50,954 nucleotides of DNA from Ramlibacter sp. (GTDB taxonomy: Bacteria; Pseudomonadota; Gammaproteobacteria; Burkholderiales; Burkholderiaceae_C): positions 1 to 50,954 of the forward strand of contig JAQGMS010000196.1 of NCBI GenBank assembly GCA_028292245.1, read 5' to 3'. Position 1 is the stretch's first letter; every line of letters starts with the position of its first letter. Position numbers and translations under genes: made by a program. The notes under the pieces were generated by a model that ran no database searches, was not told the origin of the DNA, and saw only the letters and a program-made list of their open reading frames with translations. Below are positions 12,518 through 25,357 of this stretch, piece after piece.

Positions 12518-13300
12518 TCAGCGCCCGGTAAATCGGGGTTTGCGTTTCTCGAGGAAGGCCGATACGCCTTCCCTGAAATCGGAGGTGTGCGCGGCACGCT
12601 GCTGGAGATCGGCCTCCAAGTCCAGTTGCTGCGCGAGCGTGTTGCTGGCGGATGCCAGCAAGGCCTGCTTGACGAGCGCGAAAGACTGCGTGGGCATCTG
12701 CGCCAGCCGCTGCGCGAGCGCGAGCGCCTCGCTGGCCAGCAATTCGTCGTCCACGACGCGCCACACAATGCCCATCGCGAGGGCCTGCTCGGCCGGCACC
12801 GGCTCGGCAGTGATCATCATGGCGCGCGCCCGCGAATCGCCGACGGCGCGCGGCAGCAGCCAGGTATTGCCCGCGTCGGGTATCAGGCCGACGCGCGAAA
12901 AGGCTTCGGTGAACGATGCCGTCCGGCCCGCGATGACGACGTCGGCCGCCAGCGCCAGGCCGACGCCCGCGCCCGCTGCCGCTCCCTGCACCGCGCACAG
13001 CACCGGCTTGGGCATGCTGCGCATCAGGGTGATGACACGGTTCATGCCGCTGCGAAGGTCTTCAGCGAAGGACGCGACATCGGCGTCCTTCAATGCCTTG
13101 AGGTCGCCCCCGGCCGAGAAGGCGCGGCCGGCCGCGGCAACGACGACGCAACGCACGCTTTCATCGGCGGCAACCTCCTCCAGCCGCGCCGCGAGTTCGG
13201 CCGCCCGCTCCTTGTCCAGGGCGTTCAGCGATGCCGGGCGGTTCAGCGTCAGCCACGCGACGCCGTCCCCCGTCGAAACGAGCAAGGTGGCCTCAGCCAT
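12518..13300 (-). CDS. Enoyl-CoA hydratase/isomerase family protein (paralogue 2)
   Basis: A 260-residue crotonase-fold protein with oxyanion motifs GRAFSAGGDLKAL and GAAAGAGVGLAL. Like paralogue 1, it has Gly at the first classical Glu position and an Asp in GLIPDAGNTW, as in PaaG and related isomerases. The C-terminus SDFREGVSAFLEKRKPRF is the usual trimer-interface end of the family. The start at 13300 overlaps the stop of the CaiB-like gene by eight bases and removes about 56 implausible upstream residues. Hydratase or delta-isomerase activity cannot be decided from sequence. Confidence 0.88.
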   Translation of the reverse strand: MAEATLLVSTGDGVAWLTLNRPASLNALDKERAAELAARLEEVAADESVRCVVVAAAGRAFSAGGDLKALKDADVASFAEDLRSGMNRVITLMRSMPKPVLCAVQGAAAGAGVGLALAADVVIAGRTASFTEAFSRVGLIPDAGNTWLLPRAVGDSRARAMMITAEPVPAEQALAMGIVWRVVDDELLASEALALAQRLAQMPTQSFALVKQALLASASNTLAQQLDLEADLQQRAAHTSDFREGVSAFLEKRKPRFTGR

Positions 13301-14519
13301 CGACGCCCTCTCCAGATTGCTTGGCGACGCCTTGCGCGAGCAGCCGCGAGATTTCTTCGCTGGAAAATCCCGCCTGCCCAAGAACCGCCACGGTGTCCTG
13401 GCCGAGCAGCGGCGCCTGGCACCGCACCGCAGCGGGTGTCGATGAAAAGATGGTGGGGGGCCGGACATAGCGGATGCGGCCCTCGGTCGGGTGGTCCGCC
13501 ATCTGGAACAGGCCGACGGCTTTGAGGTGCGGGTGCTCGGGCAACTGCTCGATGCCGTAGATCGGCGTGGCCGGGATGTCCAGCCGCTCGCACATTTCCA
13601 TCATCTGCGCCGTCGTCCGGTCGGCCGCGTACTCCTGCACCTTTGCGTAGAGCGCAACCACGTTCTTGTTGCGCGTGAACGGATCGACGACACCGAGTGC
13701 CTCAACCAGCTGCGGCTGGCCGATCTCGTTGAAGAACGAGATCCAGTTGGCCGCCGTATAGGGCAGGGTCGCGACGAATCCATCGAGCGTGCGAACCGGT
13801 TTGCGGCCGCCGTCGAGCAGGCGCGCGTAGCCCGCAGGACCCGCCTGCGGCTCGAACGTCAGGCCGCCCAGGTGTTCGGCCAGCACGAACGAAGTGACGG
13901 TTTCCAGCATCGGCACTTCGACGTACTGGCCGACCCCGGTGCGCTCCCTGTGAAAGAGCGCCGCCAGCACTGCGTTGACCAGCGCCAGGCCGGCCGTCTT
14001 GTCGGCCACCAGGCTGGGCAGGTACTGGCGGTCGGTGTCCGATCCGAACGCCACCATGCCGCTGGCCGCCTGGATGATGTCGTCGAAGGCCGGCTGGTCG
14101 CGATACGGGCCATCCTGCCCGAAACCGGTGGCGGCGCAATAGACGATATCGGGTTTGAGCTTGGCGACGGCCTCGTAGCCGAAGCCCAGTTTGTTCAACG
14201 CGCTGACGCGCATGTTGTGGATGAAGACATCGACGGTGGGCACCAGCCTGCGCAAGGCTTCGACGCCTTCCGGCCGCTTGAGGTCCAGGGCGATCGACTG
14301 CTTGTTGCGATTGATCGCCAGGAAGATCGAGCTCATGCCGCGGTGCAACGACACGCCGTTGGCGCGCATCACGTCACCCTGCACCGGCTCGACCTTGATG
14401 ATCTCGGCGCCGTAGTCGCCCAGGATCTGGGTGGCCATCGGCCCCAGCACCACGGCGGTGAGGTCCAGGATGCGGACGCCGCTGAGCGGCCCGCCCGATG
14501 CGGCCGGCTTCGAACTCAT
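13293..14519 (-). CDS. CaiB/BaiF-family CoA-transferase (first)
   Basis: A 408-residue class III CoA-transferase, which moves CoA from one acyl-CoA to a free acid and so activates substrate without ATP. Seen: an N-terminal VRILDLTAVVLGPMATQILGD strand-helix, INRNKQSIALDLK, and a GPYRDQPAFDDIIQA segment carrying the conserved Asp of the family. The start at 14519 (MSSKPAASGG) gives a four-base overlap with the Bug gene. In this block it may load CoA onto the imported acid, in parallel with the AMP-forming ligase. Donor and acceptor are unknown. Confidence 0.88.
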   Translation of the reverse strand: MSSKPAASGGPLSGVRILDLTAVVLGPMATQILGDYGAEIIKVEPVQGDVMRANGVSLHRGMSSIFLAINRNKQSIALDLKRPEGVEALRRLVPTVDVFIHNMRVSALNKLGFGYEAVAKLKPDIVYCAATGFGQDGPYRDQPAFDDIIQAASGMVAFGSDTDRQYLPSLVADKTAGLALVNAVLAALFHRERTGVGQYVEVPMLETVTSFVLAEHLGGLTFEPQAGPAGYARLLDGGRKPVRTLDGFVATLPYTAANWISFFNEIGQPQLVEALGVVDPFTRNKNVVALYAKVQEYAADRTTAQMMEMCERLDIPATPIYGIEQLPEHPHLKAVGLFQMADHPTEGRIRYVRPPTIFSSTPAAVRCQAPLLGQDTVAVLGQAGFSSEEISRLLAQGVAKQSGEGVDG

Positions 14520-15508
14520 TCCGGCTTGATGCCGGCGTCGGCGGCAACGCTGCGCCAACGCTCGATTTCGGTGGCGATCTGCCGGCGCATTCCCTCGGCG
14601 CCGCCGGAGCCGGGCTCCGCGGAAACGCGGCGGAAGAAGGCGCGCGTTTCATCGGTGGCGGTGATCTGGCCCAGCCACTCGCGGTACTGGTTGACGATCG
14701 ACTGCGGCGTCTTGGCCGGCAACGCCGCGGCGGCCCAGCTCAGCGCGGTGAAGCCGGGATAGCCCGACTCGATGAAGGTGGGCACATCCGGAATCTCGGG
14801 CATGCGTTGCTCGCCGCCGGCGGCCAGGATGCGCAATTTGCCGGCCTTGGCCAGCGGGATCGAAGACAGCGGATCGACCAGGCCCACGTCGACGAAGGCG
14901 CCCGCCAGCGCGGCGCTGACATCGGCCGAGCCCTTGTAGGGAACGCTGTTCAGGCGGATGCCGGCCATCTTGTAGAAGGCGGCGAGCGAGAGCAGGTACG
15001 AAGGCGCGCCGGTGCCGGAGTTGAGTGCGCCGGGCGCAGCCTTTGCCTTGTCCACGAAATCCTTGAGCGTGCGAAATGGCGAGGTCGCGGGCACGGCCAG
15101 GACGAAAGCGCCCGCGATCAGCAGGCCCAGCGGGATGAGGTCGTTGACCGGGTCGTAGGGAAGCTGCTTGAACAGCACGACGTTGGTCGTGAAATGCGAA
15201 GCGCCGCCGATCAGCACCGTGTAGCCATCCGGCGGCGCGCGCAGCACGTTGCCGATGGCGATGAAGCCGTTGCCGCCCGGCTGGTTTTCCACCACCACCG
15301 ATTGCTTGGCCAGCTGTCCCAGTTTGTCCGCGTAGTAGCGCGCCGACACGTCGGTGCCGCTGCCCGGGGGAAAGGCGGCGATGAACTTGATGGGCTTGGT
15401 GGGAAAGGCGGCCTGCCCGAAAGAAGGCGCCGCAAAGGACGCGAGGCCCAGCGGCAGCGTGGCGATCAGCGAGCGCCGGCGTATGCCGGGCGGATGTTGC
15501 GATGTCAT
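14516..15508 (-). CDS. Bug-family (TctC-like) periplasmic solute-binding protein, first
   Basis: A 330-residue extracytoplasmic binding protein of the tripartite tricarboxylate transporter class. The N-terminus has RRRSLIATLPLGLASFAAPSFG, a signal peptide with a twin-arginine flavour (the first R pair is followed by S, L), then FPTKPIKFIAAFPPGSGTD, the usual start of Bug proteins. PPDGYTVLIGG and VPYKGSADV are further family motifs. No TctA or TctB membrane subunit is encoded nearby, as is common for Bug proteins in Burkholderiales. Such proteins bind carboxylates; this one probably senses or captures the pathway substrate (inference). Confidence 0.92.
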   Translation of the reverse strand: MTSQHPPGIRRRSLIATLPLGLASFAAPSFGQAAFPTKPIKFIAAFPPGSGTDVSARYYADKLGQLAKQSVVVENQPGGNGFIAIGNVLRAPPDGYTVLIGGASHFTTNVVLFKQLPYDPVNDLIPLGLLIAGAFVLAVPATSPFRTLKDFVDKAKAAPGALNSGTGAPSYLLSLAAFYKMAGIRLNSVPYKGSADVSAALAGAFVDVGLVDPLSSIPLAKAGKLRILAAGGEQRMPEIPDVPTFIESGYPGFTALSWAAAALPAKTPQSIVNQYREWLGQITATDETRAFFRRVSAEPGSGGAEGMRRQIATEIERWRSVAADAGIKPE

Positions 15509-15523
15509 GAATGTCTCCTTGTC

Positions 15524-16579
15524 CTAGAAATCTCGGGCCAATCCCGCTGCGGTGATGTCGGCCCACAGGTGGGCCGCGCCGCGCTCGATCACGAGCTTGC
15601 CCAGGCGTCCCGCCCAGAACGCTTCGGTGCCGTTCTCCGCGCGCCACGACCAGAGCCGCCGCGTGAGGAAATGAAGCTGGTATTCCTGGGTGATGCCGAT
15701 CGCGCCGTGCACTTGATGGGCCGCATTGGCCACCAGGCTGGCCGCGCTTCCGGCGCGAACCTTTGCTACCGCGGCGGCACGAAGCTGCGGCGATGCGGTG
15801 CGAAACGCCAGCGCGCACGCGGCCCGCGCGCTGGAGACTTCTCCCGCCGCGATGGCCAAAGCCTGCTGCACCGCCTGGAAGCGGCCGATCGGCTGCCCGA
15901 ACTGAACGCGGTCCTTGGCGTACTGCACGGCCAGGTCGAGCGCTGCTTCCGCCGCGCCGGTCAGCGCCGCAGCGGCCATCTGCGCGTTGTACAGGTCCAG
16001 CAGCAGGCCGCTGTCCGCGAGCGGAACACAGGCATCGCAGCCCACGCCTTCCAGCTTGACGCCGTCCCTGGGCTCGGCGGCGATGTTGGCGTTGGCCGTG
16101 ATGCCGGCGCCCGCGTCCTTGGCGTTGACGAGGCAGACACGTTCCTCGCCGGGAGCACCGGCGACGACGACGATCGATGCGGCGTGTCGCGCCCAGGGCA
16201 CGGCGGTTGCGTTGCCGGTCAGGCGCGCTTTGGTTCCCGCGCCTGCCGGTGCGGCTTCGATGCGGCAGGCCACCACGATGCCTTCGGGCTGTGCAATTCC
16301 CGCCCGGCCCAGCAGCGCGCGGGCAACCATCACTTCGCGAATCGGCAAGGGCACGCGGTGGTATCCGCTCAGCATCACGAGTTGCAATGCCGCCGCCATG
16401 GCTTCGCCGGCATTGCCTTCGGCCTCGCCCAGCAGCATTTCAAAGCCGCTTTCGGCAAACGACGCCCACAGTTTTTCCGGCAACTTGCCCTGGTCCAGGC
16501 CGTGCATTTCGGCGGCGCCGCATTGCTCCTTGAAGAGCCGGGCCGCGCCGTCGGCAACCATTCTTTCGAGTTCGTTCAT
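15524..16579 (-). CDS. Acyl-CoA dehydrogenase family protein, small subunit of a pair
   Basis: A 351-residue member of the flavoprotein family that introduces the alpha-beta double bond into acyl-CoA. The middle domain is degenerate but the C-terminal helical domain is clear (KDRVQFGQPIGRFQAVQ near 226-242, then VHGAIGITQEYQLH). At the position of the canonical catalytic Glu (YEGT motif) it reads ENGT, giving Asn. Its gene overlaps that of a 383-residue homologue by four bases. This resembles the heteromeric acyl-CoA dehydrogenases of steroid degraders, where two unequal subunits form one enzyme; that comparison is inference. It lies 15 bp upstream of the Bug gene. Confidence 0.87.
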   Translation of the reverse strand: MNELERMVADGAARLFKEQCGAAEMHGLDQGKLPEKLWASFAESGFEMLLGEAEGNAGEAMAAALQLVMLSGYHRVPLPIREVMVARALLGRAGIAQPEGIVVACRIEAAPAGAGTKARLTGNATAVPWARHAASIVVVAGAPGEERVCLVNAKDAGAGITANANIAAEPRDGVKLEGVGCDACVPLADSGLLLDLYNAQMAAAALTGAAEAALDLAVQYAKDRVQFGQPIGRFQAVQQALAIAAGEVSSARAACALAFRTASPQLRAAAVAKVRAGSAASLVANAAHQVHGAIGITQEYQLHFLTRRLWSWRAENGTEAFWAGRLGKLVIERGAAHLWADITAAGLARDF

Positions 16580-17726
16580 CTCAGGCCCAGGCCCTTCGCG
16601 ATGATCCCGCGCATGATTTCGCGCGCGCCGCCGCGTATCGAGAATTGCGGCACCGTCTGCACCAGCACGGCCATCACCGCATTCAGGTTGCTGTCCGGCC
16701 GGGACAGATCGATCGTGAAAATATCGTGGGCAACCTCGGGAATCTTTTGCTCGAACGTCGTGCCCCGGTCCTTGACGACGGCCGCGGCCAGCGCCGGCGA
16801 TTCGCCGCGGGCGAGCATCCCGGCGATGCCGAGCGACATCTCGCGCAGGGCCGTCATTTCGGCGACCAGCTTGCCGATCTCGACGGCGGCGCGCTCGTCG
16901 CCGGGGTTCGCCGCATCCACCATCTCCAGCAGCAATTGCATGCTGCTCATGTAGCGCTCGGCGCCGCTGCGCTCCAGCGAAAGTTCGCGCGTGACCTGGG
17001 CCCAGCCGTCGCCTTCCTTGCCGATCAGCGCTTCGGGCGGCAGCATGACCTGGTCGAAGGTCACCTCGTTGAAATGGTCGCTGCCCATCAGGTTCTTGAT
17101 CGGACGCACCGTGAGCCCCGGGGTGTCCATCTTCAGCAGGAACTGCGACAGGCCCTGGTGCTTCTTCTCGTGCGACGAGGTGCGGAACAGGCCGATCATG
17201 TAGTCGGCTTCATGCGCATATGAGGTCCAGATCTTTCGTCCGTTGAGTTCCCAGCCACTCGCCGTGCGGCGGCCGCTGCTGCGTACCGACGCCAGGTCGG
17301 AACCGGCGTCCGGCTCGCTCAGGCCGACGCAAAAGCTGAGCTCGCCGCGCGCCACCCGGGGCAACAGGTCCTGCTTCAGCGCTTCGGTGCCGTACTCGAG
17401 CAGCAGCGGCCCGGTCTGGCGGTCCAGCGCCAGGCACGAGGCGATGGGCGCGCCCACGGCAAGCAACTCTTCGTACACCACATAGCGCTCGGCGGTCGTT
17501 CTTTCATGGCCGCCATATTGCTTCGGCCAGGTCACGCCGATCCAGCCGCGCGCGCCCAGTTTCAAGGCGAAGTCGCGGCTGAAACTGCCGTTCCAGCTTT
17601 CCGCGCGCTTGGTGCGCGGATAGTCGCCCAGCGTTTGCGCAATGAAGTCCCGCACTTCCTGGCGCAAGCCCTCCAGCCCGGGATCGGGTATCGGCGGGAC
17701 GATATGCAGGGCTTCCATCGCGGGCA

Positions 17727-17727
<1 letters not shown>
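16576..17727 (-). CDS. Acyl-CoA dehydrogenase, large subunit of a pair
   Basis: A 383-residue acyl-CoA dehydrogenase. The FAD/substrate motif FCVGLSEPDAGSDLASV is near residue 130 and the second motif GRKIWTSYAHEADYM near 160. The C-terminus FSIRGGAREIMRGIIAKGLGL is that of the FadE subgroup that has GGTSEI-like sequence instead of YEGT, so the canonical C-terminal Glu is absent, with Arg there. The start at 17727 (MPAMEALH) forms a TGATG junction with the upstream hydratase stop; MEALH at 17718 is an alternative. The four-base overlap with the next gene suggests one heteromeric enzyme. Confidence 0.9.
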
Positions 17728-19552
<1,825 letters not shown>

Positions 19553-24193: not shown

Positions 24194-25357
24194 TCACGCG
24201 GCCTGCCGCCCCTGCGCGGCGATGCGTTCGCGGGCAATGATCTTCTTCATGATCTGCTCGGTGCCGTCGCCCAGTTCCAGCCCCATCACGTCGCGCATGC
24301 GCTGCTGGTGCGGCAGGTCGATCGAATAGCCGTAGTGGCCGTGCAGCAGCAGGCAGGTGTGGATGACGTCGAACGAGTGCTTGGGGCCCATCATCTTCAC
24401 CATCGCGGTTTCGACGGTGTGCTTCTTGCCCTGGTCCGCCAGCGCGAGCGCATGGTAGGAAAGCTGGCGGATGGCGGCGATCTGCGCTTCGCCTTCGGCC
24501 AGCGGAAACGTCACGCCCTGGAACTGCGAAATGGTGCCGCCGAACGCCTTGCGCTGCGTGATGTAGCGCCAGGTCTCGTCGATGGAAGCCTGCGCCGCGC
24601 CGATGCATTGCAGGCCGATCAGCACGCGGCTGAAGTCCAGCCCCTGCATGACATGGCTGAAGCCCTGGCCTTCATCGCCGAGCATGTTTTCCGCGGGCAC
24701 TTCCACTTCATCGAAGAACACCGAACCGCGGCCGACGATCTTGGTGCCCACGTCGTCGAACAGCGTGCGCGTGATGCCCTTGGTGTCCGACGGCACCAGG
24801 AAAGCCGAGATCCCGCGGTGGCCATCCTCCTTGCTGCCGGTGCGCGCGAACACGACGAAGGCATCGGCCTGCACAGCGCCACTGATCGATGTCTTCTCGC
24901 CGGAGATGAGGTAGTGCTTGCCGCGCTTGACGGCCTTGGTGCTGAGGTTGGCCACGTCCGAGCCGCCGCCCGGCTCCGTCAGGGCAATAGCGACCAGCGC
25001 TTCGCCGCCGGCAATGCGCGTGACCCAATGCTTCCCGAGTTCGGGGTTGGCGTTGCGCGAGATCACATGGCCCAACAGGCTGCCGAAGACCTGCACGTAG
25101 GAGACATTGAAATCCCCATAGGCGATCGCCTCGGTGATCACGCCACACGCGGTGTGGCTCAGCCCCAAGCCGCCCAGGCTTTCGGGCAGTTCGGGCGCGA
25201 TCAGCCCCAGTTGCCCCATTTCGCGCAGCAGGGCGCGGTCGTATTTTGCGTCGGCCTCGCGTGCCTGGTAACGAGGCGCGAGTTTCTCGCGCGAGAAGCG
25301 CTCGGCGGCGTCGCGCAGGGAGGTGAGCAGTTCCGCGTCTTCGGTGATGGGGGTCAT
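24194..25357 (-). CDS. Acyl-CoA dehydrogenase (third)
   Basis: A 387-residue acyl-CoA dehydrogenase, distinct from the overlapping pair at 15524-17727. The motif IALTEPGGGSDVANL is near residue 120 and HYLISGEKTSISGA near 148. Near the C-terminus it reads LELGDGTEQIMKKIIARERI, so the canonical YEGT motif has Asp in place of Glu. RKAFGGTISQFQG is the usual helix-I motif. The start at 25357 makes a four-base overlap with the SDR gene upstream, so the two are probably coupled. The substrate is unknown. Confidence 0.9.
   Translation of the reverse strand: MTPITEDAELLTSLRDAAERFSREKLAPRYQAREADAKYDRALLREMGQLGLIAPELPESLGGLGLSHTACGVITEAIAYGDFNVSYVQVFGSLLGHVISRNANPELGKHWVTRIAGGEALVAIALTEPGGGSDVANLSTKAVKRGKHYLISGEKTSISGAVQADAFVVFARTGSKEDGHRGISAFLVPSDTKGITRTLFDDVGTKIVGRGSVFFDEVEVPAENMLGDEGQGFSHVMQGLDFSRVLIGLQCIGAAQASIDETWRYITQRKAFGGTISQFQGVTFPLAEGEAQIAAIRQLSYHALALADQGKKHTVETAMVKMMGPKHSFDVIHTCLLLHGHYGYSIDLPHQQRMRDVMGLELGDGTEQIMKKIIARERIAAQGRQAA

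Follow-up and report, generated by a model that had tools for sequence, protein, structure and literature searches.

An overlapping gene pair of Ramlibacter sp. very probably encodes the two subunits of one heteromeric acyl-CoA dehydrogenase

Contig JAQGMS010000196.1 of Ramlibacter sp. (GenBank assembly GCA_028292245.1; positions 1 to 50,954, the whole stretch analysed, here called the window) carries two unequal acyl-CoA dehydrogenase (ACAD) genes that overlap, and this raises the question of whether they encode two enzymes or one, where the catalytic base lies and what kind of substrate is served. An earlier, sequence-only reading of this DNA had claimed that 383- and 351-residue ACAD homologues are encoded by genes overlapping by four bases, and this is borne out by the open reading frames (ORFs) at 15524-17727, the ATGA overlap and the Pfam matches. 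We consider the two proteins, with a probability of about 0.9, to be the alpha and beta subunits of one heteromeric ACAD that depends on flavin adenine dinucleotide (FAD), most likely an alpha2beta2 assembly that binds two FADs and has two active sites. On the minus strand the large-subunit gene comes first and the small-subunit gene second, and the ATGA overlap makes translational coupling of the two likely. The features on which the argument draws first are as follows, with their basis in brackets.

16576..17727, minus strand: gene of the large (alpha, predicted catalytic) ACAD subunit, P0001, 383 aa (ORF, Pfam, PDB sequence matches, model)
15524..16579, minus strand: gene of the small (beta, predicted FAD-completing) ACAD subunit, P0002, 351 aa (ORF, Pfam, PDB matches, model)
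16576..16579, minus strand: ATGA overlap of 4 bp, large stop and small start (ORF coordinates)
17293..17319, minus strand: SEPDAGSDL, residues 137-145 of the large subunit, flavin-side motif of the ACAD middle domain (motif counts)
15896..15910, minus strand: RVQFG, residues 224-228 of the small subunit, which we take to be the motif reaching FAD across the dimer interface in ACADs (R.QF[GDE] motif counts)
15695..15715, minus strand: QVHGAIG, residues 289-295 of the small subunit, presumably the second cross-interface FAD motif (motif counts)

Division of the flavin site between the two subunits

In homomeric ACADs, as in structures of medium-chain acyl-CoA dehydrogenase (MCAD), both motif sets lie in one chain, with the second set reaching the FAD of the neighbouring chain. 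We compared the window's locus (L001) with 99 further loci, giving 100 loci in all (80 of 215 relatives were kept in the related-locus set); L002 and L098 are one locus, so that the distinct sequences number 99 for the large subunit and 82 for the small. The 83 aligned small sequences are 300-419 aa long and adjacent to the large gene by a fixed distance rule; fragments, overlong frames, and non-adjacent or absent genes were left out. SEP..GSDL and K.W[TSN] each occur in 100/100 large subunits, and in 0/83 and 2/83 small subunits, respectively (GSD alone in 9/83). R.QF[GDE] and the pattern of the Q..HGAIG region are found in none of the 100 large sequences and in 82/83 and 79/83 small ones, and R224, F227 and G295 of the small subunit, kept in 83/83, are among its most conserved positions. 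Because the small subunit has no SEP..GSDL and the large one no R.QF, neither holds the complete set of ACAD FAD motifs.

In alpha2beta2 ACADs, as a section of PMC11153573 describes them, alpha binds the isoalloxazine ring and holds the catalytic Glu and the substrate site, with beta binding the ADP-ribose part; a section of PMC8399759 gives one Glu-bearing subunit per heterodimer and one FAD at the interface. The motif pattern of the two predicted subunits is the arrangement described there. The substrate, the base and the isoalloxazine ring would all sit in the large subunit, whose FAD site the small subunit would complete from across the interface, at the ADP end of each cofactor.

Domain and structure comparisons agree with this division of labour. 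The large subunit has strong Pfam N and M domains (75.7 bits each) and a C domain barely above cutoff (24.1 versus 22.4 bits), and the small subunit matches ACAD C-terminal domains only. Among PDB sequences, the large subunit finds Tcur3483 first (E = 4.7e-40) and ChsE4 second (4x28_A, E = 2.7e-39), and the small subunit finds Tcur3481 first (E = 5e-19); when a profile of small-subunit relatives is used, Tcur3481 is again first and ChsE5 second, and Tcur3483 likewise stays first with the profile of the large subunit. Tcur3481-Tcur3483 of Thermomonospora curvata (6WY8, 6WY9) is therefore the best PDB sequence match for both subunits, and Tcur3481 shares the R.QFG of the small one. For ChsE4-ChsE5 (FadE26-FadE27; 4X28) of Mycobacterium tuberculosis, alignments pair the large subunit with ChsE4 and the small one with ChsE5; this enzyme and ChsE1-ChsE2 of the same organism have the same subunit division of labour, according to parts of PMC11153573 and PMC8399759.

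Single-chain models were predicted with mean pLDDT (predicted local distance difference test) scores of 92.9 (large) and 93.7 (small). The top four Foldseek matches of the small model (4x28_C, 6wy8_C, 6wy9_B, 6wy8_A) are the small chains of solved steroid heteromers, and those of the large model are 8hk0_A, 6wy9_A, 6wy8_B and 8hk0_B, each from an entry with two proteins in its title. In VIA comparisons, the small model matches 6wy8_A best (Z 37.8, root mean square deviation [rmsd] 2.6, 332 aligned), followed by 6wy9_B (37.5), 4x28_C (37.1) and 3mpi_B (35.9), and the large model matches 8hk0_A (Z 41.6, rmsd 2.4, 364 aligned) and 6wy8_B (40.2). The top match of the large model in both comparisons, the Fic32-Fic33 complex of Streptomyces ficellus (8HK0), is known to us by its entry title; it differs in its 26% identity and in a Ser at the column of residue 365 (HMMER alignments), and a literature search that included Fic32 found no paper containing that name.

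The pair also persists across genomes. The small gene is adjacent to the large one in 87/100 loci, 56 of them in the order large-small and 31 in the order small-large, and the exact 4-bp overlap is seen in 31 of these 87, the window included. Among the 13 loci that fail the adjacency rule, L018 and L035 are adjacent on inspection and L091 has its small gene 2.1 kb upstream. At L018 (G013:C2) the small gene beside the large is interrupted, two ORFs being split by a stop codon, and the same genome has an intact pair (L003). Profile searches of 184 genomes (the window's own and 183 drawn evenly from the class), run at E <= 1e-100 for the large subunit and at E <= 1e-60 for the small one, match the same 8 genomes, the window's own among them, and in all 8 the genes lie side by side, one pair being divergent. 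Adjacency in 87/100 loci together with this common set of 8/184 genomes indicates an association beyond chance. Of the 19 relative loci from the single-sequence searches, 18 have the small gene beside the large by rule (the 19th is the broken L018). Sequence matches, folds, motif complementarity and co-occurrence together support the earlier proposal that two unequal adjacent genes make one enzyme of the ChsE1-ChsE2 type. Its divided active site holds for the FAD site, which the motifs split, and not for the base and substrate site, which parts of PMC8399759 and PMC11153573 place in one subunit.

Catalytic base and the C-terminal motif register

The base of ACADs lies in the J-K loop in MCAD and at a topologically equivalent site in isovaleryl-CoA dehydrogenase and long-chain acyl-CoA dehydrogenase, helix G in the latter case, as a section of PMC11153573 sets out. 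Four features of the large subunit bear on the base and on the residues around it.

16972..16974, minus strand: Glu252 codon, predicted catalytic base, model helix 241-253 (alignment with Tcur3483 and ChsE4)
16633..16635, minus strand: Arg365 codon, position of the MCAD Tyr and of the key glycine of Tcur3483, G363 (alignments, Arg in 97/100 loci)
16630..16632, minus strand: Gly366 codon, position of the MCAD C-terminal Glu (Gly in 100/100 loci)
17416..17424, minus strand: Asp102-Arg103-Gln104, subfamily-typical triplet, model helix 96-112 (DRQ in 95 and ERQ in 5 of 100)

Glu252, which lies within LERSGAER, is Glu in 100/100 loci (99/99 distinct sequences) and aligns with the ER of Tcur3483 and ChsE4, so that by homology it is predicted to be the catalytic base; an ER[SA]-type pattern occurs anywhere in the small subunit in 4/83 sequences. 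The sequence-only reading had found no canonical catalytic Glu in either protein. This is right for the MCAD-type YEGT position, where the large subunit has Gly366 in 100/100 loci and the small subunit has Asn316 in the window (Glu in 1/83), and Tcur3483 likewise has helix-G ER and no Glu at this C-terminal position; it does not extend to helix G, where Glu252 is present in the position customary for this family. That neither subunit has a base was rejected on the strength of this aligned Glu252.

The register of the C-terminal motif also needed correction. The large-subunit loop I-R365-G366-G367-A368-R-E-I aligns without gaps with I-Y-G-G-T-N-E-I of another pair in the same genome and also aligns with AIYAGTNE of 2pg0, from which it follows that R365 occupies the Tyr position, G366 the Glu, G367 the Gly and A368 the Thr. 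IRGG had been placed at the YEGT position of the large protein, one residue off, as it is RGGA that aligns with YEGT; the placement of Arg365 at the MCAD Glu position was rejected for the same shift of one place.

Following the mechanism of the family, Glu252 would take the alpha proton and a hydride would pass to flavin N5; the resulting 2-enoyl-CoA would go to the crotonase of the adjacent gene, and the electrons to electron-transfer flavoprotein.

Subfamily signature, neighbouring genes and substrate

Residue 365 of the large subunit is Arg in 97/100 loci (Gln in 2, Tyr in 1) and in 8/8 plasmid relatives at 42-62% identity. In the deposited Tcur3483 sequences this column differs, with Gly in 6wy8 and Ala in 6wy9 (titled "G363A variant"); going by the title of a study of it, this glycine reportedly affects flavin placement and side-chain specificity of the steroid ACAD. 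Elsewhere the column holds Tyr, in L118 and L119, in PimC proteins over cutoff (L122, L124) and in four weaker PimC relatives (L125-L128), or Phe (L129). Contig C69 of the window's genome has two further unequal ACAD pairs (L109, 6439-8768; L111, 6198-8421), with Tyr at this column, that is, YGG and not RGG; the ORFs scanned near them include genes for crotonases and a CoA-transferase as well as for a thiamine pyrophosphate enzyme and a protein resembling 3-hydroxyisobutyrate dehydrogenase. The triplet at 102-104 is never DRQ or ERQ in the other large subunits compared, which have, for example, ILM, VMM, VTM, VSM, VNM or, in L129, VKM. Residue 98 is Cys in the window, versus His in the other 98 distinct sequences of the set; Variovorax paradoxus VAI-C has Cys as well. 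Arg365 and DRQ/ERQ support a subfamily that would have its own pocket, found in many proteobacteria and on Rhodococcus plasmids.

Pimeloyl-CoA dehydrogenase of Rhodopseudomonas palustris (PimC-PimD) resembles the pair in having large and small subunit genes and non-steroid substrates, and the PimC model matches 60/60 large relatives scanned. A PimCD equivalog was rejected, as the NCBIfam scores fall below cutoffs and, for PimC, as L122 and L124 have YGG and no DRQ. PimC is over cutoff in 3 of 4 hand-chosen genomes, of which L123, with its C-terminus out of frame, was left out of the residue comparison; a PimC search of 60 genomes of the order (E <= 1e-180) gave 0/60 but also recovered 0/14 controls and is therefore uninformative. 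For IpdE1-IpdE2 (FadE30-FadE33), the IpdE2 model is the best NCBIfam model of the window's small subunit and matches 50/52 small relatives scanned, but the match is confined to residues 174-308, at 74.7 versus 450 bits, and an equivalog was rejected on this score.

The genes nearest to the pair are the following.

17727..18515, minus strand: crotonase/enoyl-CoA hydratase family protein (NCBIfam PRK09245, over cutoff)
18512..19501, minus strand: nitronate monooxygenase-like protein, gene overlapping the crotonase gene by 4 bp
14516..15508, minus strand: Bug/TctC periplasmic solute-binding protein (PF03401)
13293..14519, minus strand: class III (CaiB/BaiF) CoA-transferase, start inferred (PF02515)

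The stop of the crotonase gene and the start of the large gene share 1 bp, and a homologue of this crotonase is present at 38/80 related loci. Downstream on the same strand lie the Bug/TctC protein, the class III CoA-transferase, a crotonase, a thiolase, a second crotonase, a short-chain dehydrogenase/reductase and an AMP-dependent ligase. The window from 1 to 30000 is rich in acyl-CoA catabolism genes: it encodes five crotonases and three class III CoA-transferases, along with a Liv-type ATP-binding cassette transporter and an ATP-grasp protein resembling succinyl-CoA ligase. A third window ACAD (about 24197-25330, minus strand) has all three Pfam ACAD domains within one chain and is on that account probably a self-sufficient homomeric enzyme.

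In V. paradoxus VAI-C, the closest match in the plasmid collection (62%), the five genes likewise run crotonase, large, small, Bug protein and CoA-transferase; the large and small genes again share 4 bp, and the Bug protein and CoA-transferase relatives stand in equivalent places beside the pair. Close to the pair of Cupriavidus metallidurans (60%) lie Bug homologues and a CoA-transferase of 62% identity; plasmids of Azospirillum, Novosphingobium and Sulfitobacter have CoA-transferase and crotonase genes near the pair, those of Azospirillum and Sulfitobacter also Liv-type or TRAP (tripartite ATP-independent periplasmic) transporters. A CoA-transferase adjoins the pair in Rhodococcus DK180 and a thiolase in Rhodococcus DMU1, and neither is annotated within the stretch around the pair in Aromatoleum EbN1. 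Rather than a steroid, the enzyme probably acts on a carboxylic acid that enters with the help of a Bug-type binding protein and is activated by the class III CoA-transferase, a conclusion less certain than that on the architecture. Beyond this, we tentatively propose, as a possibility well short of an even chance, a distinct heteromeric ACAD subfamily with a polar acyl pocket, in which Arg365 and Asp102-Arg103-Gln104 would grip a negatively charged group of the substrate. The enzyme would then desaturate carboxylated acyl-CoAs, namely substituted short dicarboxylates esterified with a single CoA; it is the charged residues that prompt the guess of a diacid. Two points weaken the reading of the substrate. 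The neighbourhood varies, the 80 named loci having a CoA-transferase in 15, a crotonase in 44, a ligase in 7 and a thiolase in 15, and with so few CoA-transferases the substrate argument drawn from them is weak outside the closest relatives; also, the comparison of the Arg365 column with PDB proteins covers just Tcur3483, ChsE4, 8hk0 and 2pg0. A literature search found nothing joining such a pair to CaiB or tripartite tricarboxylate transporters. Beta-proteobacterial PimCD-like pairs show fitness defects on C8-C12 dicarboxylates, according to a section of PMC12543098, which says of the PimCD-like pair, no more strongly, that it may be a heterotetramer; the defects suggest that such pairs do not serve steroids only.

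The proposal of the earlier reading, a heteromeric ACAD acting on a bulky, steroid-like substrate, is the strongest of the alternatives and in our view unlikely. In its favour, the solved proteins closest in sequence are steroid ACADs, and the relatives include many sphingomonads as well as a plasmid of Novosphingobium sp. ES2-1, which we take to be an oestrogen degrader; two-subunit side-chain ACADs have been described in such bacteria (in parts of PMC8399759 and PMC12882949). Against this, the column that holds the key Gly363 in Tcur3483 and a Gly in ChsE4 (GGG in ChsE4 versus RGG here) is occupied by Arg365. Tcur3483 also differs in having no DRQ triplet; the two solved systems act on bile-acid side chains (Tcur3481-Tcur3483, from a section of PMC8399759) and in the cholesterol side-chain pathway (ChsE4-ChsE5). 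The neighbouring genes encode proteins of the CoA-transferase, crotonase, thiolase and Bug types, and among 40 chosen ORFs of window positions 1-42075 we recognised no Pfam domain specific to steroid degradation. The bulky substrate is left unsupported by this lack of a recognised steroid-specific domain among the 40 ORFs and by Arg365 in place of Gly363.

Weight of the evidence on the architecture

Several observations weigh against the assignment of the pair to one heteromeric ACAD. In the single-sequence PDB search with the small subunit, ChsE5 ranks 11th, and for the large model ChsE4 ranks 14th in Foldseek and 38th in VIA (4x28_B, Z 37.1). Homomeric ACADs come within about 2 Z of the top VIA match of the large model (8sgs_A 39.8, 2pg0_B 39.6, 8sgr_A 39.4), so that structure alone is no proof of heteromery, and identity by structure to the solved heteromers is low (23-28%; about 24-28% for Tcur3481-Tcur3483). 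The NCBIfam scores lie below cutoff for PimC (TIGR03204, 173.2 versus 623.85 bits, large subunit), PimD (TIGR03203, 47.8 versus 652.7 bits) and IpdE2 (NF050027, small subunit, the 74.7 bits given above). Single-sequence searches at E <= 1e-80 find the large subunit in 15/61 genomes, and at E <= 1e-40 the small one in just 8/61, the window's own included. Finally, at 10/100 loci no small gene was found on the stretch examined around the large one.

These large-only loci do not mean that the small gene is missing from the genome. Eleven whole genomes, namely those of nine of the 10 large-only loci, that of L091 and one control, all carry a small relative (11/11), with best E values per genome from 5e-137 to 3e-64; the weakest match spans just profile positions 180-344, near a contig end. 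At 6 of 8 such small loci there is no large gene within flanks of about 1.5 kb per side, and the two genes can apparently be unlinked without loss of either. For the large-only loci L063, L064, L067, L071, L076 and L077 the best small gene lies elsewhere in the genome (L102-L107), and the records of these six genomes are titled Rhodopila, Acetobacteraceae, Asaia or Proteobacteria.

It is very unlikely, in our estimate, that the large protein works alone, with the small one a degenerate or non-catalytic ACAD that serves as a regulator or chaperone. Identity to the window's copy is 31-41% for the small subunit (alignment A2, 52 small sequences) and 43-58% for the large one (alignment A1, 60 of the 100 large sequences), which shows the small subunit diverging faster and would suit such degeneration, but its cross-interface FAD motifs, absent from the large subunit, are among its most conserved positions. 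Two independent homomeric ACADs that are neighbours by coincidence are the least credible reading, for, although overlapping genes alone are no proof of a complex and the large fold is also close to homomeric ACADs in VIA, the two proteins divide the FAD motifs and both profiles match the same 8/184 genomes; the divided motifs likewise disfavour the two self-sufficient homotetramers against which the earlier proposal had been set.

A pair that seems to have no base by the textbook YEGT motif is, on the assignment to one heteromeric enzyme, an ordinary heteromeric ACAD with its predicted base in helix G, which is useful for annotation. The architecture would be ordinary, and the subfamily is recognisable and merits a test, since the identity of the substrate would tell whether bulky substrates or acyl-CoAs in general are what the two-subunit design is for. 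If the proposed polar pocket is real, carboxylated acyl-CoAs would be delivered through the neighbouring uptake proteins and the class III CoA-transferase, and diacid catabolism would have as good a claim to the two-subunit architecture as steroid catabolism has.

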